NCBI GenBank assembly: GCA_913056125.1
Contig: CAJXNC010000002.1
Span: 62,001-126,000, forward strand
Direction: 5' to 3'
Source: an uncultured Altererythrobacter sp.
GTDB lineage: Bacteria > Pseudomonadota > Alphaproteobacteria > Sphingomonadales > Sphingomonadaceae
DNA length: 64,000 nt
Shown here: positions 2,708 to 62,117 of the stretch, piece by piece
How positions within the stretch are numbered: the first letter of the stretch is position 1
Layout of the letters: each line of letters starts with the position of its first letter
Program-made: the position numbers and the translations under genes
The notes under the pieces: generated by a model
Told to the model about the DNA's origin: nothing
Databases searched by the model: none
The model's input: only the letters and a program-made list of their open reading frames with translations

Positions 2708-3035
2708 TGAGGCCCCGCGCCTAGCGCAGGCGATTGCCGCGCAATCGACAAGCTAGAAGCGAGAGGCCGTAATCACGGCCGGGGGCCGACGGGCCTCAGC
2801 CCGTCCGAGCCCTTCGACGTCACGCGGCGCATGGAGCGTTTGCCCAGCAAACGCGGAACGGCGCGTGGCGGTAGGGTTGACTCTTCGTTGCGTAATAGAA
2901 GGCACCATACGCAAAGCGTTTTGCCCCAATTACCAAGCACCTAACAGACGAAGAGATATATTACTCTGCATTGACTGTAGGGTTGCGTAGTTAAAGGAAA
3001 TATGTTCGTTCTTACGAGAACGAGGGGATAATTCT
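2708..3035. other. 328-bp intergenic region: GC-rich hairpins, then AT-rich leader of the DUF262 gene
   Basis: I see no gene here. The left half is GC-rich and holds three perfect short inverted repeats: GGCCGT-AATC-ACGGCC (2765-2780), GACGGGC-CTCA-GCCCGTC (2788-2805) and GCGTTTG-N5-CAAACGC (2836-2854). The last sits inside an outer CACGCG...CGCGTG pair (2821-2826/2862-2867). They could end lepA transcription, although no T-run follows. From about 2880 the base composition turns AT-rich, matching the next two genes. A near repeat TTGACT-N5/6-TTGCGTA occurs at 2877-2894 and 2971-2989. Confidence 0.6.
3006..3028 (+). promoter_or_regulatory. Inverted repeat next to the Shine-Dalgarno sequence of the DUF262 gene
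   Basis: TCGTTCT-TACG-AGAACGA (3006-3023) is a perfect 7-4-7 palindrome whose last base begins the purine-rich Shine-Dalgarno stretch (GAGGGG, about 3022-3028). It lies 12 bp before the ATG at 3036. It can be read as a regulator operator or as an mRNA hairpin that limits ribosome access. The palindrome is seen; its role is inferred. Confidence 0.45.
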
Positions 3036-4961
3036 ATGTCTAGCGGTATCCGAATTTCTGAACTCTCGATCAGCGAGGTTCTAGACAATCTGCGCGAGAG
3101 GAAGTGGCAAATCCCGCGCTTCCAGAGAGAGTTCGTGTGGGACACTTCTGCGGTGGCTGGCTTGGCGACATCCGTCATTGATGGATATCCAATCGGGATG
3201 GTCACCTTATGGGAGCAGCCAACCGAATCCCACATAGAACTTGAGCCCCTCTCCATTGATGATTGGGATACCAAGGCAAAGGCAAAGGTAACGCGAGAAT
3301 TTGGTCACGAAGACTCAAATCCATCGACTGTGAAGGCAATCCTTGATGGGCGGCAAAGAAGTACTGCGTTGGCAATGGCCTTCGCGGGCTTCGCACCGAC
3401 CTTCGGCCTCAACAAGTATGCAGGCAAGTACTTCCTAAATGCATCTCTTAAAGACCCGCTGGAGAGGGTGATCTTTAAGAAGAAGTCGGCGATAGAAAAG
3501 GAGGGTCTTACAAATTTAAACGCTTGTATATCGAAGGGCTATTTTCCACTGGCCAGTTTTGAGAAGGACCAGTCGATACTGAAGCAATGGTACGGTTACA
3601 TACAGCTATTGCGTGATGAGAAAGTTTACCCAGAAGGAGAGTATCCCGAGGCGGAAGAACTCGAACGCCGAGATGAAATCCTTCAAAAAGCTTTTGAAGG
3701 CATTAGTGAAACAAAATTGGGGGCCTGCACAGTCCCGCAACGGTATGACTTGGGTCAGATTTGCGAGATATTCGAAACCCTTAATCTCACGGGAATGAAG
3801 GTATCTACTGTTGATTTGATCAACTCTTGGCTCCTGCGTGATACAGACGACCAACTCCACCTTCGCGAATGGATGGATACATTGGCGGAAGAAGACGGAG
3901 CGGTTGGCTGGTCGGTTCCGAAGAAACGGCCAGAATTGGTCGCCCAGTTAGCCACAGCGTGCTTCGTTGCCCTCACGGACTTGCCGACGAAACCAGACGC
4001 GAGGCGAGTAGCGGGGGCGAGCAAAACAAGAAGTATTACGACCGTAAAGTCCTCAGATTTGCTCGCAACTCCCACTCAACATTGGATAAATGTCACCAAT
4101 CACACAGACGAATTTGCTAGTTATATCGGTGCTTTCCAAAAAGTCGTAGGGGACGGCCCATTTGGCTATCAGCAATGCCCCTACCCGATTTCTTCGGGCA
4201 TTTATGTAGGCCTGAGGTGGCATAAGAAATTCGATCCTGAACACACTCACGGTAGTTGGCAGGTCGGCGATCTGGATCGCATTTACCGCGCATTCTTTTG
4301 GCGCAATGCACTTTCGACGCGATACGATCAGGGCTTCCTCAGCCAAATGGGGACGGACCTTGTCACCTTGAAAGCTCTACTCGCGACAAAAGGGGTTTAT
4401 GACACTGAGGTAGAATGGCTCGATCAAGTGGAAGGCCAATTCCAAAAGGAGATACGGCCGGTAGACATCCCATCGCGTGAAGATCTGATCGACTACCTCA
4501 CCAACGGGCGGCCTGGTGGCGCTTTGCAGTCAGCTCTGATGCTGCCGATGGTGGCCCGTAGCACCGTTGATTTTGGCGGAAATCAACTGATTGGCGATAC
4601 GGATACACGAACTGAAATCCACCACGTCTATCCAACGCGCTGGTGTCGCGAGAACGCATCCAATGAGTACAAAGAACTCTTAAGCCAGGATGGTGAAGGA
4701 CCCAATTTTGCAAATTCGATAGCCAACTTGATGCCTCTTTCGCGCGAACTCAATTCGGAATGGAGTTCGAAGAGTCCAGCCACATTCTTTGCCGCGAAAG
4801 GGGTACAATATGAAGGTGCTGTCGCGGAAGCTTTGGGCCAGGTTTTCATAGATAAGGAAGGCTTTGAGTTGCTGCGCCAAGGCTTGCCTTCAATAAAGAA
4901 GTTCTGGCTTCATCGAGCCGGATTGATTGCCGACCACCTGCTCGAACAAACCAAGCTCTGA
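3036..4961 (+). CDS. DUF262 / DUF1524 (GmrSD-like, HNH nuclease) protein
   Basis: This 641-residue protein has the two-part architecture of GmrSD-type enzymes. The N-terminal DUF262 (ParB/sulfiredoxin-like NTPase) region shows IPRFQREFVW (26-35), DGYPIGMVTLW (49-59), the signature DGRQRSTAL (104-112, the DGQQR-type motif) and the LTGMKVSTVDLI segment (251-262). The C-terminal DUF1524 region carries the HNH-type motif EIHHVYP (527-533) with NSIANLMPLS (560-569). Relatives include type IV modification-dependent restriction enzymes (GmrSD) and BREX-associated BrxU, which cut modified phage DNA with NTP hydrolysis. The gene is AT-richer than its neighbours and uses codons rare elsewhere in the window (AGA, ATA), suggesting acquisition. 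It overlaps the next gene by one base. Function in defence is inference from family. Confidence 0.88.
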   Translation: MSSGIRISELSISEVLDNLRERKWQIPRFQREFVWDTSAVAGLATSVIDGYPIGMVTLWEQPTESHIELEPLSIDDWDTKAKAKVTREFGHEDSNPSTVKAILDGRQRSTALAMAFAGFAPTFGLNKYAGKYFLNASLKDPLERVIFKKKSAIEKEGLTNLNACISKGYFPLASFEKDQSILKQWYGYIQLLRDEKVYPEGEYPEAEELERRDEILQKAFEGISETKLGACTVPQRYDLGQICEIFETLNLTGMKVSTVDLINSWLLRDTDDQLHLREWMDTLAEEDGAVGWSVPKKRPELVAQLATACFVALTDLPTKPDARRVAGASKTRSITTVKSSDLLATPTQHWINVTNHTDEFASYIGAFQKVVGDGPFGYQQCPYPISSGIYVGLRWHKKFDPEHTHGSWQVGDLDRIYRAFFWRNALSTRYDQGFLSQMGTDLVTLKALLATKGVYDTEVEWLDQVEGQFQKEIRPVDIPSREDLIDYLTNGRPGGALQSALMLPMVARSTVDFGGNQLIGDTDTRTEIHHVYPTRWCRENASNEYKELLSQDGEGPNFANSIANLMPLSRELNSEWSSKSPATFFAAKGVQYEGAVAEALGQVFIDKEGFELLRQGLPSIKKFWLHRAGLIADHLLEQTKL

Positions 4962-5734
4962 TGCCTGGCCCGCTCCTTGATTTTTTGTTTCGCGCATATA
5001 GGGACGGCGCGGAATGCACGCTCGCGGAGCTTAGAGCGTATGAGGAATTCGAAGGACTTAGCCTTCTCCAGTCTCTCACGGCAATCGATGAGCGATTGCA
5101 AGGTGAGGGGCTCTGTATCGTTCCGCCAATCGATGAAGGTGAAATGGACCAGGCACGAGTCGTGAGCCGGGCTGTCAGAGATGAGACATTCGAGGCTGCT
5201 TATAAGCGAGCTTTGGATGAAGATGAGAGCCAGGAAGTAGAGTATAAAGAAAGTCTATACCTCAAGAAAAAAGTCTACGGGAATGAGAAGGTTCCTAAGG
5301 ATGCCTGGGTGGGCGAAGAGATTGTTTTCGAGGTCGTATCGACGATTTGCAGCTTCCTAAACAGTGATGGTGGTATCTTGCTTATTGGTGTGGCGGACGA
5401 TGGAAGTAGTCCAGGAATTGATTGCGAGTTGTCATTCATTCCTGGAAACAAAAATGACCTCGATCAGTGGCAATTACACTTATCCAACTGCCTGAAGAAA
5501 TACATCTACGACTTCACCAGCATCATAGGCTATATCAAGCGCAAAATTATTCAGACCGATGATGGGAATCACGTTTGCGTGGTCATTGTGAGTAAGCGGA
5601 CTTCATCTTTGACAGTTTGCCAAACACCCAGCGCGCCTGGCTCCGAAGTTGTTTACGTTCGCAATGGGAATGGAAAGGCGGAAATAAAAGCTAGAGCAAT
5701 CGAAGAGTTGATCCGCTCGCGTCTTACCAACTAG
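4961..5734 (+). CDS. AlbA_2 (Schlafen-type) putative ATP-binding protein
   Basis: This 257-residue protein starts at an ATG sharing the A of the upstream TGA (TGATG), so translation is probably coupled. An N-terminal ~80-residue helical part precedes an AlbA_2 domain: EVEYKESLY (92-100), the helix and turn SFLNSDGG (131-138) and IGVADDG (142-148), then a YVRNGNGKAE segment near the end. The AlbA_2/Slfn domain occurs in putative transcription regulators and in Schlafen-like nucleases; many are annotated ATP-binding. Base composition matches the upstream gene and differs from the chromosome. The tight overlap suggests the two proteins act together. I do not know a named system with exactly this pair. 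Confidence 0.82.
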   Translation: MPGPLLDFLFRAYRDGAECTLAELRAYEEFEGLSLLQSLTAIDERLQGEGLCIVPPIDEGEMDQARVVSRAVRDETFEAAYKRALDEDESQEVEYKESLYLKKKVYGNEKVPKDAWVGEEIVFEVVSTICSFLNSDGGILLIGVADDGSSPGIDCELSFIPGNKNDLDQWQLHLSNCLKKYIYDFTSIIGYIKRKIIQTDDGNHVCVVIVSKRTSSLTVCQTPSAPGSEVVYVRNGNGKAEIKARAIEELIRSRLTN

Positions 5735-5814: not shown

Positions 5815-6558
5815 TCAATCCCACCGCTCATCCTTCACCGTCCTGACCCTCGGTCCGTCATCTTCCTCAACCTCCTCACGATAGCCGGGCAGCAGCTTCT
5901 TCATTTCCTCCGAGGGTTGCGGGAGGTTGGCAGGATCGAACTCCGCGTCGCCTGAACCGTCCGCCGGTCCCTCCAGCATCATCCGCTGGGCCTCTTCCTC
6001 CCGCCGTCGCATCTGGTCGATCTTGGCGTTGAGACTGCCCAGCACGCTATCCTCCTCGCGCACATCCTGCGCGGCGCGCTCGGCCTCCCATTCCTGGCGC
6101 CATTCCTTCTTCAGCCGCGCGAGCATCTGCCGGTCGACCGCGCTGAGGCCCTTGGCGCCGTCCGCCGCAAAGCGCTTGGGTGCGCGGTTCCTCAGCATGA
6201 ACATCAGCAGCCGGTCATTATAGACGCGGCGCGTACCGATGATCTTGCCATAGGCATAGACGGGCACCTCCACGCCGTTGAGCGCGCGGTCCATCGCAAC
6301 ATCCTCGATTTTCTGGATGCCGAGGTCGAGCGCGGCCTCCCACGCCTTGCGGAAGCTTTTCGCCTCCGGGTGGCGGCGCAGCTGGTAGGCGCCGTTTGAA
6401 CTGCGACTGACGCGGCGGCAGGCGGCCTCGACGCTGCCCGTATCGGCCAGCGCCTCGATAAAGGCGTGCTGGACGGTGTCGCTCCAGCCGTTCGAGCGCG
6501 CCTTCTTGCGCGGGACGGGGGTGAAGGCGGGAAGGGTGGAGGCGGCTTTCCTGGTCAT
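5815..6558 (-). CDS. Conserved protein of unknown function with terminase-small-subunit-like HTH region
   Basis: The reading frame could start at 6597, but the ATG at 6558 (MTRKAAS) has a GGAG nine bases upstream and is preferred (247 residues). Residues ~25-70 resemble the helix-turn-helix of phage small terminase subunits (ALADTGSVEAACRRVSRS, then AYQLRRHP). A conserved central part includes RALNGVEVPVYAYGK and RRVYNDRLLMFMLR, and the C-terminal half is a charged coiled coil ending in an acidic tail. No other phage genes are nearby, so this is probably a chromosomal protein common in sphingomonads rather than a prophage gene. Function is unknown. Confidence 0.75.
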   Translation of the reverse strand: MTRKAASTLPAFTPVPRKKARSNGWSDTVQHAFIEALADTGSVEAACRRVSRSSNGAYQLRRHPEAKSFRKAWEAALDLGIQKIEDVAMDRALNGVEVPVYAYGKIIGTRRVYNDRLLMFMLRNRAPKRFAADGAKGLSAVDRQMLARLKKEWRQEWEAERAAQDVREEDSVLGSLNAKIDQMRRREEEAQRMMLEGPADGSGDAEFDPANLPQPSEEMKKLLPGYREEVEEDDGPRVRTVKDERWD

Positions 6559-6625
6559 GGCGGCAAGCTCCGGAGATGGAGTGGAGCCTGCCGCCATGCC
6601 CCCCGGTTATGGCAGTAGGAAAGCC

Positions 6626-42933: not shown

Positions 42934-44880
42934 CTAGCTGCACTCGACCCCGTCTTCGCCGACGGGGCGGCACCAGTCGCTCCATTCGCCGCTTTCGCGC
43001 CAGGCATCGACCATGCCCATCTCCTCGATCAGCTCGACGAATTCAGGCATTGTCCGCACGTCATCGAAGATCGGATGCCACAGCATGAAGACCAGGTTCC
43101 CGCCGGGACGCTCCATCGACAGGCGGATCAGCCGCATGGCGGCCGCATTATTGCCCAGCGCCGCCTCGGCCGTGGCATATTCCATCGCCAGCCCCTGACC
43201 GCCGACGCCCATCTGGCTGGTCAGCCATGTGCGTAGCTCTTCCATACTCATGCTGGCTTGCGGAGATCCTGCCGCGGCCGCCTCAATGCGCTGGGCCGCA
43301 GCCGGGAAATATTGCCGTGCGATCTCCATCGCCCTGTCCCGGTCCCCGCTGAGCCAATGTGCCCAAACTACGGCATCGGAGAAGCTTCCGATGGTCTGGC
43401 CCTGCCTTACCATCCGGTCGAAGCTCTCGATTACCGTGTCATAATCACGGTAGAGGATCGGCGGCCAGACGAAGAACTGGATGTTGACCAGATTGGGTTC
43501 GATTAACGCCGAGCGTCGCATGAGTTCGGCAAGCTCGTCCGAGCGTCCCATCGCCATCGGATAGAGGCCATACTGGCTGAACACGGCGAGGCTCTCCGGA
43601 TAACCGATTTCGCGCGCGCTCCGGGCATAGCGGGTCATTGCGGCAAAATCCTTCTTGGCCAAAGCCATCTGGATGCCGTTGGTCTGGCTCACGAATACGT
43701 CGGGAGCACGCTCGATGGACTGCTCCGCAATCTCGGAGATTCGCTCTATCAGCGCATCCGCCTGGTCCTGGTCTCGCAATGGCACGCCGACCAGCTGGAT
43801 TGCCAGCGCGGTTTCAAGGAGCCCGGCGGCGCGTCCAAAGTCGGGATCGAGCTCGACCGCGCGCTCGAACAGGCTGGCCGTGACAGTGAAATCGCCGCCA
43901 TTCTGCGACTGCAGGCCCTGCATGAAGACAGAGAAAGCTTCGGGATCGTTCGTTCCTTCATAGCTTGCCGAATCCGGGCCGATATCGAACGACACACGCA
44001 ACACGCCGGCAATTGAAGTGGCGATGTCTTCCTGGACGTAGAAGATGTCCTGCATCGGGCGCTCGAAATTGTCGGTCCACAGGATCTCGCCATCGCTGCC
44101 CTTGAGGGTGGCGGTTGCGCGGAGGGTCTCGCCCTGTACGCGGATATTGCCTTCCACCAGATAGGCCCCGGCAAAGCTGTCGCCCGGCACATTGCCGGCT
44201 GGATCGCTGGTGGCAATGCGCAGTTCGGGAGCGGCACGCAGTCGGATCACCAGCTCGTCGGTAATACCCTGTGCCAGGCCCATTTCGGCCGGTTCCGCTC
44301 CGGCTGAGGCGGCGAAAGGCTTGACCACCACGGCGATGCGCTCGCCCTGGGCAAGCGAGGCGCCGTCGCTATCCCGCCCCATGGTGAGATAGAGCACGCC
44401 CGCCAGTACCAGCACCACGGCGCCAATCGCGGCGAAAATGAACCTCGGTTTGTTCAATGAAATGGCTTGCGCTTCCGCCGGTGGCACAGCCTCGTCCGGG
44501 TTCAGTGACAGGGCGGCCAACATGGCCGAGGGCAAGTCGGAGGCATTGCCCGATGCCCAATCGTCAATCGGCGTGGTCTGCGTCTGGCGAAAACCGATGG
44601 GCGGCATGGTCCCGTCGATGGTGACGGGAACGAATTTGCCCTGTTCCTTGGCGATCGATGCCTCGTCGCGCACCCATTCGCTCTTCACCGAAGCGGGCGT
44701 CCACAGCACCACCACCTTGCGCGAGGCGGCAATTTCACGCTCGATCACTTCGGAGAATTGCGTGCCGCCCTCGATCTTCTGGTCGATCCACACGCTCTGG
44801 CCATGCGCCTCCAGCGCCGCGGCCAGCCTGTTGGCCAGCGCAACGTCGCTCCGCGCATAGGAAATGAAGATGTCCGCCAA
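42934..44880 (-). CDS. TIR-domain membrane protein with FlgO-like and TPR regions
   Basis: The likely TTG start at 44880 follows GGGGGGTGA, giving 648 residues; a TTG at 44895 is also possible. The TIR domain covers 1-~110 (IFISYARSD, SVWIDQKIEGG, and SEWVRDEA with the conserved Glu73). A single helix at 147-167 follows. The periplasmic part starts IAVVVKPFAASAG with GLAQGITDELVIRLRAAPEL, as in the adenylate-cyclase/CadC-like group (TolB-N/FlgO-type). TPR-like repeats run to the end (FTVTASLFERAVELDPDFGRA). Such proteins are common in Sphingomonadales, and their role is unknown. TIR domains can act as NADases or adaptors. Confidence 0.88.
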   Translation of the reverse strand: MADIFISYARSDVALANRLAAALEAHGQSVWIDQKIEGGTQFSEVIEREIAASRKVVVLWTPASVKSEWVRDEASIAKEQGKFVPVTIDGTMPPIGFRQTQTTPIDDWASGNASDLPSAMLAALSLNPDEAVPPAEAQAISLNKPRFIFAAIGAVVLVLAGVLYLTMGRDSDGASLAQGERIAVVVKPFAASAGAEPAEMGLAQGITDELVIRLRAAPELRIATSDPAGNVPGDSFAGAYLVEGNIRVQGETLRATATLKGSDGEILWTDNFERPMQDIFYVQEDIATSIAGVLRVSFDIGPDSASYEGTNDPEAFSVFMQGLQSQNGGDFTVTASLFERAVELDPDFGRAAGLLETALAIQLVGVPLRDQDQADALIERISEIAEQSIERAPDVFVSQTNGIQMALAKKDFAAMTRYARSAREIGYPESLAVFSQYGLYPMAMGRSDELAELMRRSALIEPNLVNIQFFVWPPILYRDYDTVIESFDRMVRQGQTIGSFSDAVVWAHWLSGDRDRAMEIARQYFPAAAQRIEAAAAGSPQASMSMEELRTWLTSQMGVGGQGLAMEYATAEAALGNNAAAMRLIRLSMERPGGNLVFMLWHPIFDDVRTMPEFVELIEEMGMVDAWRESGEWSDWCRPVGEDGVECS

Positions 44881-45029
44881 GCAATCACCCCCCAAAGTGA
44901 AAGCTCAGCCTAGCAGCAATTCAAGCCCGTCCAATGCCGAAAATGGGTGGAAAAGGGATGGAGGCACCACTGCATGGTCGCCTTGTGTCGGTCATGCACT
45001 AGCGAATGCCACATAGTGCGTTTACATGA

Positions 45030-60731: not shown

Positions 60732-62117
60732 GTGAGTGAGGGCAATTCCAATGTCAGCTGGTTGAAGCATGATCGCGCTGGTGCGCAACCGGCGCCTGGC
60801 TTTGCAGTGACAAAGGACGACTTGGCTTTTCTTGAGGCACTCGGCGTCCGCGCGCGCCAATACTGGAAGCTGCTGCTCGGCATCCTTGCGTTATCGCTTG
60901 CCGCAGGTGTCGCAGCTTCTCTGCTCATGCCCGAGTCCTATCGGGCAATGGCGCGGATGGAGGTCTCGCAGCAGGCGGCGCTCGCCAGCGATCCGGCCAA
61001 TGTCTCGATGGATGATGTCGAGCGTCAGCGTGTCTACCTGCAAACGCAATACGAGTTGATGCGCACTCCCTCGCTGGCGGAAAGCGTGACCGAAGCGCTC
61101 GACCTGCAAAGTGATCCTGCATTCCTTGCCGCACATGGACTGGGTGAAAATACGGAGGAGGACATCGCGTCGGTCCTGATCGAGGGGATTGTGGTCGAAC
61201 CGGTGGCCGATAGCGCGCTGGTCGATATCGGGTTCGTCAGTCCCGATCCGCTTGTCGCGATGAATGTCGCCAATGGCTGGGTCGAACAGTTCGTCATCGC
61301 CAGCCGCGAGCGCCGCACCCGCTCGATGACCGGCGAGCGCGCCAATCTCGAGAACAGGGTCGCCGCCTTGCGCGCCGAGATCGAGGAGGCCGAGATGGAA
61401 CTGATCGCCTATGCGGCGGATCGCGGCCTGCTCGGCAATGAGGCCGAGGCGACAAGCATTGCCGACCGCACGATCGGCCAGCAATTGGTGCTTGCCGAGC
61501 TGGAGCAGGCCAACGCCGATCTTGCAAGTGCCACGGCAGCGCGGATCGCCGCGCAGAGCGCCTTGGCCGCCGGTACCGGCGCGGCGCGCGAGCGCACCAG
61601 CACCAATGTCGCTGCCTTGCGCCAGCGCCGCACAGAGCTGGAGGGCGAAGTGGCGGAGCTCTCTTCCCGGTTCGGCGATGCCTATCCGCCGCTGGTCGGG
61701 CTGCGCGATGAAATCGCTGCGATCGACGAACAGGTTGACGATGCCGAGATCGCCACTTCGGAAAGTCTCGATGCCGATTTCAGGGCTGCGCAGGCGCGCG
61801 AGAACCTGCTCCGCAGTCGCGTCGACGACCTGCGCGAGCAAGTCGTCATCCAGCGAGAGGACTCGCTGCAATACAATATCCTCGAACGCGAGGTGGAAGA
61901 GCGCCGCACCCTGTACGATGCCTTGTTGAGCCGTTTGCGGGAAATGTCCCTTGTGGAGGTCGGCGCCGATCCGGTTTCCCTTGTCGAGCCTGCCAGGGTT
62001 CCCCTCGAACCCTATTCGCCCAACTGGCTGTTCAACCTTGCCGTCGCTTTCGGCCTAGGTCTCCTGATAGCGGCAGGAGCGCTCGTATTCCTTGCCCTGC
62101 GCCCGATAAGGAGCTGA
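60732..62117 (+). CDS. Wzz/GumC-type chain-length determinant protein
   Basis: The 461-residue protein starts GTG at 60732. It has a helix near 47-67 (LLLGILALSLAAGVAASLL) after a Trp/Lys-rich N-terminus, a Wzz domain (YRAMARMEVSQQAALA), a long coiled coil (about 190-390) and a second helix near the C-terminus (LFNLAVAFGLGLLIAAGALV) ending at FLALRPIRS. No Walker A motif is present, so there is no fused tyrosine kinase. It controls polysaccharide chain length and export at the inner membrane. It is 330 bp after the glycosylphosphotransferase, across the tRNA. Confidence 0.9.
   Translation: MSEGNSNVSWLKHDRAGAQPAPGFAVTKDDLAFLEALGVRARQYWKLLLGILALSLAAGVAASLLMPESYRAMARMEVSQQAALASDPANVSMDDVERQRVYLQTQYELMRTPSLAESVTEALDLQSDPAFLAAHGLGENTEEDIASVLIEGIVVEPVADSALVDIGFVSPDPLVAMNVANGWVEQFVIASRERRTRSMTGERANLENRVAALRAEIEEAEMELIAYAADRGLLGNEAEATSIADRTIGQQLVLAELEQANADLASATAARIAAQSALAAGTGAARERTSTNVAALRQRRTELEGEVAELSSRFGDAYPPLVGLRDEIAAIDEQVDDAEIATSESLDADFRAAQARENLLRSRVDDLREQVVIQREDSLQYNILEREVEERRTLYDALLSRLREMSLVEVGADPVSLVEPARVPLEPYSPNWLFNLAVAFGLGLLIAAGALVFLALRPIRS

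Follow-up and report, generated by a model that had tools for sequence, protein, structure and literature searches.

A recurrent pairing of a GmrSD-like protein with a Schlafen-type AlbA_2 protein, a probable two-gene defence unit

In the genome of an uncultured Altererythrobacter sp. (assembly GCA_913056125.1) we analysed a stretch of 64,000 nucleotides (contig CAJXNC010000002.1, forward-strand positions 62,001 to 126,000), hereafter the window, and found in it two overlapping genes whose relatives recur in other genomes, either side by side or joined in one protein. Gene A encodes a GmrSD-like protein with a DUF262 domain, and gene B a protein with a Schlafen-type AlbA_2 domain. The link between A and B is well supported, and the two genes very probably cooperate as a defence unit. 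On balance, we favour a model of a two-gene anti-phage unit, in which A would detect and cut foreign DNA and would gate B, acting as a coupled RNase arm. The features of the locus (window positions; aa, amino acids; NTP, nucleoside triphosphate) are:

2975..3035, + strand: leader, conserved by blastn with the second close carrier, genome G177; likely ribosome-binding site GAGGGGA, read by eye
3036..4961, + strand: gene A, GmrSD-like protein of 641 aa, with a DUF262 domain, a middle part and an HNH-type domain
3072..3836, + strand: GmrSD_N (DUF262) domain of A (aa 13-267), a Pfam match
3345..3359, + strand: DGRQR motif of A (aa 104-108), putative NTP site; D104, G105, Q107 and R108 invariant in 9/9 proteins
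4593..4778, + strand: HNH (GmrSD_C-like) domain of A (aa 520-581), with HHVYP at aa 529-533; sub-threshold Pfam match, conserved residues
4961..5734, + strand: gene B, protein of 257 aa, with an N-terminal region of about 85 aa followed by the SLFN_AlbA_2 domain
4961..5215, + strand: N-terminal region of B, alignable and weakly conserved across the seven split B proteins aligned
5225..5683, + strand: SLFN_AlbA_2 domain of B (aa 89-241), a Pfam match
5225..5242, + strand: E89 and E94 of B (ExxxxE), putative RNase glutamates, invariant in 8/8 B proteins and in the 18 AlbA_2 domains aligned
5396..5398, + strand: D146 of B, putative third active-site residue, in 17/18 AlbA_2 domains aligned; N in locus L068

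Genes A and B form tight pairs across genomes

Both A and B are open reading frames (ORFs), and their coordinates confirm the single shared base, in TGATG, that had been reported in the initial annotation of this DNA. To find relatives we scanned genome contigs with an alignment of three A proteins, the patterns being taken from the DUF262 part alone, and 80 loci were returned. Seven of them hold full-length relatives of A (37-71% best-segment identity), in a Rhodobacteraceae genome, a Rhizobiaceae metagenome-assembled genome (MAG), a MAG named as an acidobacterium, a Brevundimonas MAG, two Thalassovita and a Bauldia MAG, and B lies directly downstream of A at six of the seven. In a separate search of 299 genomes of the phylum, ten matched A at 1e-6, and one more full-length copy (38%), abutting B, was found in genome G742, which we counted as one locus with L068 (Thalassovita mediterranea). 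Together with the window and G177, this makes nine loci with full-length A, and at eight of them A and B are a tight pair, the genes overlapping or almost touching.

The pairing is no accident. The identity matrices of A and B correlate across the eight pairs (r 0.947), a value reached in only 4 of 40320 label permutations, and at the AlbA_2 profile threshold used a single uncoupled AlbA_2 protein (L103) was found in 87 loci (the 80 of the scan and seven viral ones). No third gene of the system was seen in the nine loci, compared over 8 kb on each side where present (3 kb upstream in the window; short in L063, L066 and L068): the shared neighbours are lepA-region genes (window, G177, L065) and recombinase-like ORFs (L064, L066).

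Close copies are few. In the order-level search 5 of 196 genomes matched B, the window's own included, and the sole near copy was that of G177 (92%), whose A is 95% identical and whose homologous DNA covers 2975-5726, that is, the leader and nearly all of both genes. At the family level 18 of 199 genomes matched A at 1e-3, with whole-length matches in the window's own genome and G177 only, and when 385 genomes of the class were searched with a profile, the window's genome alone yielded full-length A (1e-20). A profile of B matched 13 of these 385: the window's own, G580 (a fusion), G484 (a methylase-like fusion, matching from profile position 38) and ten others. In these ten the match begins at profile position 64 or later, and a further protein that includes the beginning of B did not turn up among the 385. 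No relative of B was found in viral_contigs, and no match to B in phages at 0.01; seven distant DUF262 loci of viral_contigs match A, and in none of the seven, several of which are cut by contig ends, was AlbA_2 detected by profile.

DUF262 and AlbA_2 are also fused in single proteins

Among the 73 other scan loci, 15 encode DUF262 and AlbA_2 in one ORF (L071, L074, L080, L085, L086, L087, L091, in which the DUF262 frame is broken, L092, L093, L107, L109, L114, L116, L125 and L138), in archaea (haloarchaea and others) and several bacterial groups. Five further fusions came from other searches, on Sinorhizobium meliloti pSymA, two haloarchaeal plasmids, and in G580 and G847 (loci L006, L031, L032, L037 and L055, in numerical order), bringing the total to 20. 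When phages were searched with the fused protein, seven records matched, none of them across the AlbA_2 end. The initial annotation had called for a check of co-occurrence and gene order; the tight pairs and the fusions indicate that these families recur together as a unit.

A quick tree was built from 93 DUF262 domains (20 fused, 8 split, 65 neither). One of its clades (support of 100 in the Shimodaira-Hasegawa-like approximate likelihood ratio test, SH-aLRT) unites the split proteins with L065, a second (SH-aLRT 96) holds 19 fusions and two fragmentary rows, and L055 was a separate fusion beside an unfused protein (SH-aLRT 99). A single origin of all DUF262 and AlbA_2 proteins, imposed by holding 31 rows together (split and fused, with L065 and the two fragments), was rejected by the approximately unbiased test (p 1.3e-8, at a cost of 123 log units), as was a single origin of all fusions (p 4.9e-6, 103 log units); both values are to be read with the caution that the tree is a quick one, that the groups were named after it had been seen, and that long branches are present. 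The tree suggests at least three joinings of DUF262 and AlbA_2.

Gene A resembles GmrSD-type restriction enzymes

A is a GmrSD-like protein consisting of a DUF262 NTPase and an HNH-type nuclease, both activities being putative. It matched Pfam GmrSD_N (DUF262, PF03235) at 2.3e-24 (87.1 bits, curated cut-off 33.2), and GmrSD_C (DUF1524) with 19.7 bits (E 8e-4), under the curated cut-off of 23; the G177 copy reached 22.2 bits against the same cut-off. The DGRQR and HHxxP...N..N motifs pointed out initially hold up in the alignment of nine full-length A proteins, where Q30-R31, D104-G105-x-Q107-R108 and F246-x3-N250 (QR, DGxQR, FxxxN) as well as H529, H530, P533, N564 and N573 (HHxxP...N...N) are invariant in 9/9. 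The first Q of DGQQR is replaced, by R in the window protein and by K in that of L068. By sequence, the closest solved chain to a profile built from seven A proteins is 7p9k (1.2e-16), which we take to be BrxU and which the search output names a DUF262 protein; the HNH part matched weakly. No whole-protein match was obtained to PADLOC HEC-05, the best being 2.4e-23 in two stretches, of which the better placed A residues 9-119 on positions 25-133 of 600.

GmrSD-type enzymes have mostly been described as one-protein DNA restriction systems. The QR, DGQQR and FxxxN motifs of DUF262 have been described for GmrSD proteins (PMC4619093, PMC12137116), and A's closest known kin either cleave modified DNA or introduce nicks under the control of NTP (PMC10952713, PMC12137116). 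Two-gene GmrSD-like systems, GrwAB and TgvAB, are known from Vibrio cholerae (PMC12137116).

Gene B carries the putative active site of a Schlafen RNase

The AlbA_2 domain assigned to B initially was recovered well above threshold, B matching Pfam SLFN_AlbA_2 (PF04326) at 3.6e-13 (50.5 bits, curated cut-off 25.3). The N-terminal region matched no Pfam family. Because Pfam found a single AlbA_2 stretch in B, and no second Schlafen lobe as in the vertebrate core, B is an AlbA_2 protein and not a vertebrate-type Schlafen.

Sixteen residues, including E89, E94, K96, N134, G137, G138 and G143, are invariant in the eight B proteins, whose identity goes down to 21%; the Schlafen RNase glutamates are kept in 8/8 and the aspartate in 7/8. 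Alignment of 18 AlbA_2 domains (7 split, 11 fused) out of the 28 in hand left E89, E94, K96, N134, G137, G138, G143, G152, D168 and R234 invariant, and the ExxxxE[FY]K pattern is present in 20/20 fusions. A profile of the 18 domains matched the SLFN11, 14, 13, 12 and 5 chains, up to 1.9e-12, and, weakly, the first lobe of vertebrate Schlafens. The E....E-F-K and G-V-x-D stretches line up with those of SLFN11; in the HMMER alignment to the SLFN13 chain the glutamates do not fall in register. In rat SLFN13, E205, E210 and D248 form the putative active site, and mutation of any one of them diminished cleavage (PMC5862951); this numbering fits the 5yd0 chain with an offset of 13, by our own count. 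D147 was considered as the third active-site residue, being invariant in the eight B proteins, but was set aside as D146 is the one that aligns with the Schlafen aspartate and is found in 17/18 domains. The solved protein CbCash (PDB 9ylu, 9ylv, 9ylx) also matches the AlbA_2 profile, at 4.5e-6, and an AlbA_2 protein from another genus of the family (L009:7934-8671) has an N-terminal part that looks membrane-spanning by eye.

As far as sequence can tell, B is probably an RNase. The agreement of its residues and of the profile with the Schlafen RNase active site makes B more likely a second effector than the 'ATP-binding' regulator of the initial annotation, a role that found no support here. 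In the alternative that stays closest to that annotation, A is the only nuclease and B a nucleic-acid- or nucleotide-binding adaptor that recognizes targets or restrains A. A recognition role is conceivable given that AlbA_2 is fused to an N6 DNA methylase on a Pseudoalteromonas plasmid (L007:5945-8296) and, in G484, to a protein that weakly matches methylase specificity (L038:3038-4696, - strand). The second subunit of GrwAB combines DUF262 with domains of unknown function, and the available text of PMC12137116 names no nuclease domain in it. The invariant set of B, however, includes the glutamate pair and K96 of the RNase-like site and goes beyond what an adaptor needs, and we regard the adaptor reading as unlikely.

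The pair occupies a defence hotspot beside lepA

The A-B block is flanked by lepA and by a terminase-small-subunit-like gene (5815-6597, - strand; phrog_4044 at 1.2e-19), and in G177 the pair is found at the same lepA end, inverted. We fetched the interval 3' of lepA for 10 of the 12 other genomes of the genus that match lepA (in G896 and G898 the match is at a contig end). Six of these ten congeners hold AT-rich cargo at the lepA 3' side (G+C content, GC, 0.47-0.56), different in each. PADLOC names for this cargo were PDC-M63A/PDC-M32A/HNH, PDC-M71A+B, MTase_I, SIR2+HerA, dGTPase and DRT RT_UG5-nitrilase, and Pfam gave DUF6932, kinase, methylase, HerA, SIR2, HD and HNH, with RVT_1 below the cut-off; the DRT reverse transcriptase is 1033 aa long, and the SIR2-HerA pair belongs to another congener. 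Ten of 13 candidate cargo ORFs were scanned with PADLOC; all ten matched at 1e-3 and nine at 1e-10. As a control, the remaining 33 long ORFs of the window gave seven protein-family matches at 1e-10, so that no more than 7 of the 33 can have matched, a soft control as some of these are probably not genes. A further HNH-like gene lies at the lepA 3' side in L173, and no AT-rich cargo was seen within the stretches fetched for L171, L172 and L174. That the lepA site is a defence hotspot, occupied in the window by the A-B pair, is well supported. The initial annotation would have counted homologues occurring apart, without enrichment in defence islands, against a defence role; the opposite was found, the two families recurring together and the pair sitting where congeners keep other defence systems.

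Matches to the terminase-small-subunit-like gene number between 1 and 8 per genome in 13 genomes of the genus. The gene is next to the cargo both in the window and in 6/6 loci L165-L170; it was not found in L171-L174 or in the G177 stretch. Other copies lie near AT-rich genes in L175, L177 and L179, not in L178, and none were flagged in L176 and L180. The gene may mark accessory cargo or help to spread it.

Elsewhere, a tyrosine-recombinase-like ORF adjoins the pair in L063, L064 and L066, with phage-like genes near L063 and a TIR-like ORF near L066 (all by eye). Such neighbours at three loci speak for mobility of the pair, and they would also suit a module of general mobile-element competition, or one resembling a toxin-antitoxin, carried on prophages or islands and directed at plasmids or rival elements rather than phages. 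We find this improbable: the lepA site is shared with genes that match models of anti-phage systems, and neither A nor B resembled a known antitoxin in the Pfam search. No genes of bacteriophage exclusion (BREX) systems were recognized by eye around five split pairs, whose flanks were not scanned with models.

The flanks of the single-chain fusions were scanned in batches (95 ORFs from 18 of the 20 loci, without L080 and L055), and 10 of the 95, picked by size and nearness, were scanned singly. Seven of the ten matched defence models at 1e-10 (Type IIG, PbeA, DrmD/BrxH, GajB-like, two MTase_I and HmaC), a set that has no control. On S. meliloti pSymA (L006:3817-19589) the annotation places the fused gene among a DUF2384/RES pair, a recombinase, a type I methylase, an abortive-infection protein and a type I R subunit.

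Both genes are under selection, with no sign of recent transfer between close carriers

The block differs in composition from its surroundings, as had been noted: GC is about 0.45-0.53 across it and about 0.59-0.68 in both flanks, and the third-position GC of A (0.54) and B (0.52) are the two lowest of 37 long, non-overlapping, mechanically called window ORFs (median 0.74), some of which are probably not genes. Between the window and G177, amino-acid identity is 0.945 (94.5%) for A and 0.914 (91.4%) for B, although 42% and 40% of four-fold sites differ (distances 0.63 and 0.58), a combination that places both genes under strong purifying selection. The proposal that the unit was acquired is consistent with its composition, but the silent sites of these two close carriers give no indication of a recent exchange between them, the silent-site distances of the pair exceeding that of lepA (0.42, possibly deflated by codon bias).

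Proposed function and relation to known systems

In the model that we favour, the DUF262 domain of A would recognize DNA that is non-self and probably modified, the binding or hydrolysis of NTP serving as the switch. The HNH domain would cut or nick the sensed DNA, as in GmrSD, BrxU and SspE. B would bind A and act as a Schlafen-type RNase, with tRNA or another structured RNA as its most likely target. Held inactive until A is engaged, B would bring about a stop of translation that backs up DNA restriction, and the single-chain versions would retain both arms in one protein. The gating of B by A is suggested by the fusions and by the tight coupling of the genes. That A is instead a stand-alone Type IV enzyme with B as a passenger is very improbable, as the absence of B from L065 is set against tight pairs at 8/9 full-length A loci, recurrent fusions and matching A and B matrices.

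Several points weigh against our model. In L065 (the Brevundimonas MAG) A stands directly after lepA with no B within the 21.9 kb stretch, so that A may work by itself, or loss of B is possible. The split form is uncommon, with full-length A in 1/385, 2/299 and 2/199 genomes, the window's own counted each time; no coupled AlbA_2 was seen in 58 of the 73 other DUF262 loci, some of them cut by contig ends; and among plasmids, where 427 records match the S. meliloti fused protein, the match is whole-length in three, itself included, of the best 40 of the 427. The HNH domain of A is below the Pfam cut-off, and His529 replaces the acidic residue of the published E/D-H-N-N. In B, the position of D146 is N in L068 (D in 17/18 AlbA_2 domains), and the strict Asp-stretch pattern is found in 16/20 fusions, two of the four misses carrying Asp when aligned. 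As AlbA_2 also occurs on methylase-type proteins and elsewhere, it may have a more general nucleic-acid role. The activities of both proteins are putative, predicted from their sequences, and the sensing of modified DNA by A would be by analogy with its known relatives.

A resembles the DUF262-DUF1524 restriction enzymes GmrSD, BrxU and SspE in its DUF262 domain, in the motifs QR, DGxQR and FxxxN, and in a C-terminus of HNH type. It differs from them by having, in the sequences inspected, DGRQR or DGKQR where they have DGQQR, by HH instead of DH, an HNH domain that stays under the cut-off, and a Schlafen-type partner or fused domain. Vertebrate Schlafens have two AlbA_2-type lobes. With vertebrate SLFN11/12/13/14, and probably with bacterial Schlafens, B has in common the domain of the AlbA_2 family and the E..E..D set, but it has a single AlbA_2 stretch, its own N-terminal region and a GmrSD-like partner, unlike the vertebrate proteins. 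As in GrwAB and TgvAB, a DUF262-nuclease protein would act with the product of a second gene of the same operon; according to the available text on those systems their second proteins carry a DUF262 of their own, whereas B has none and matches only SLFN_AlbA_2 in Pfam.

We found no literature pairing DUF262 with AlbA_2. For GmrSD with schlafen only a BREX survey was found (PMC12839542), in the available text of which GmrSD-type DNases and Schlafen RNases are both extra effectors of BREX loci; there they are separate effectors, whereas here they are joined as one unit. The same article cites a preprint on bacterial Schlafens. In the text available, PMC12988326 mentions HEC-06 only, and PMC12851939 has Schlafens in its reference list only. 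No pair of the A-B type was among the literature matches listed (titles and abstract starts), and within the literature searched we found no earlier report of the pair, to which extent its novelty is limited.

Schlafens have mostly been described as antiviral RNases of animals, and reports of them from bacteria are now appearing. We put forward tentatively, as a possibility, the more general idea that a Schlafen-type RNase is licensed by a DNA sensor and nuclease of the restriction type. One small unit would then attack invader DNA and shut down translation, in a design that would have been assembled at least three times in bacteria and archaea, both as an operon and in the form of single proteins. 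If this is true, the recurrent unit would show how DNA recognition is tied to RNA cleavage, would provide a minimal two-gene or one-gene system for testing the coupling, and would be a further route for Schlafen domains in prokaryotic immunity, with the split and fused forms as ready comparisons.

Elsewhere in the window, the ORF at 42937-44895 (- strand) begins, by eye, like a TIR-domain protein; TIR-type PADLOC models matched the batch in which it was scanned, the member of the batch not being named.

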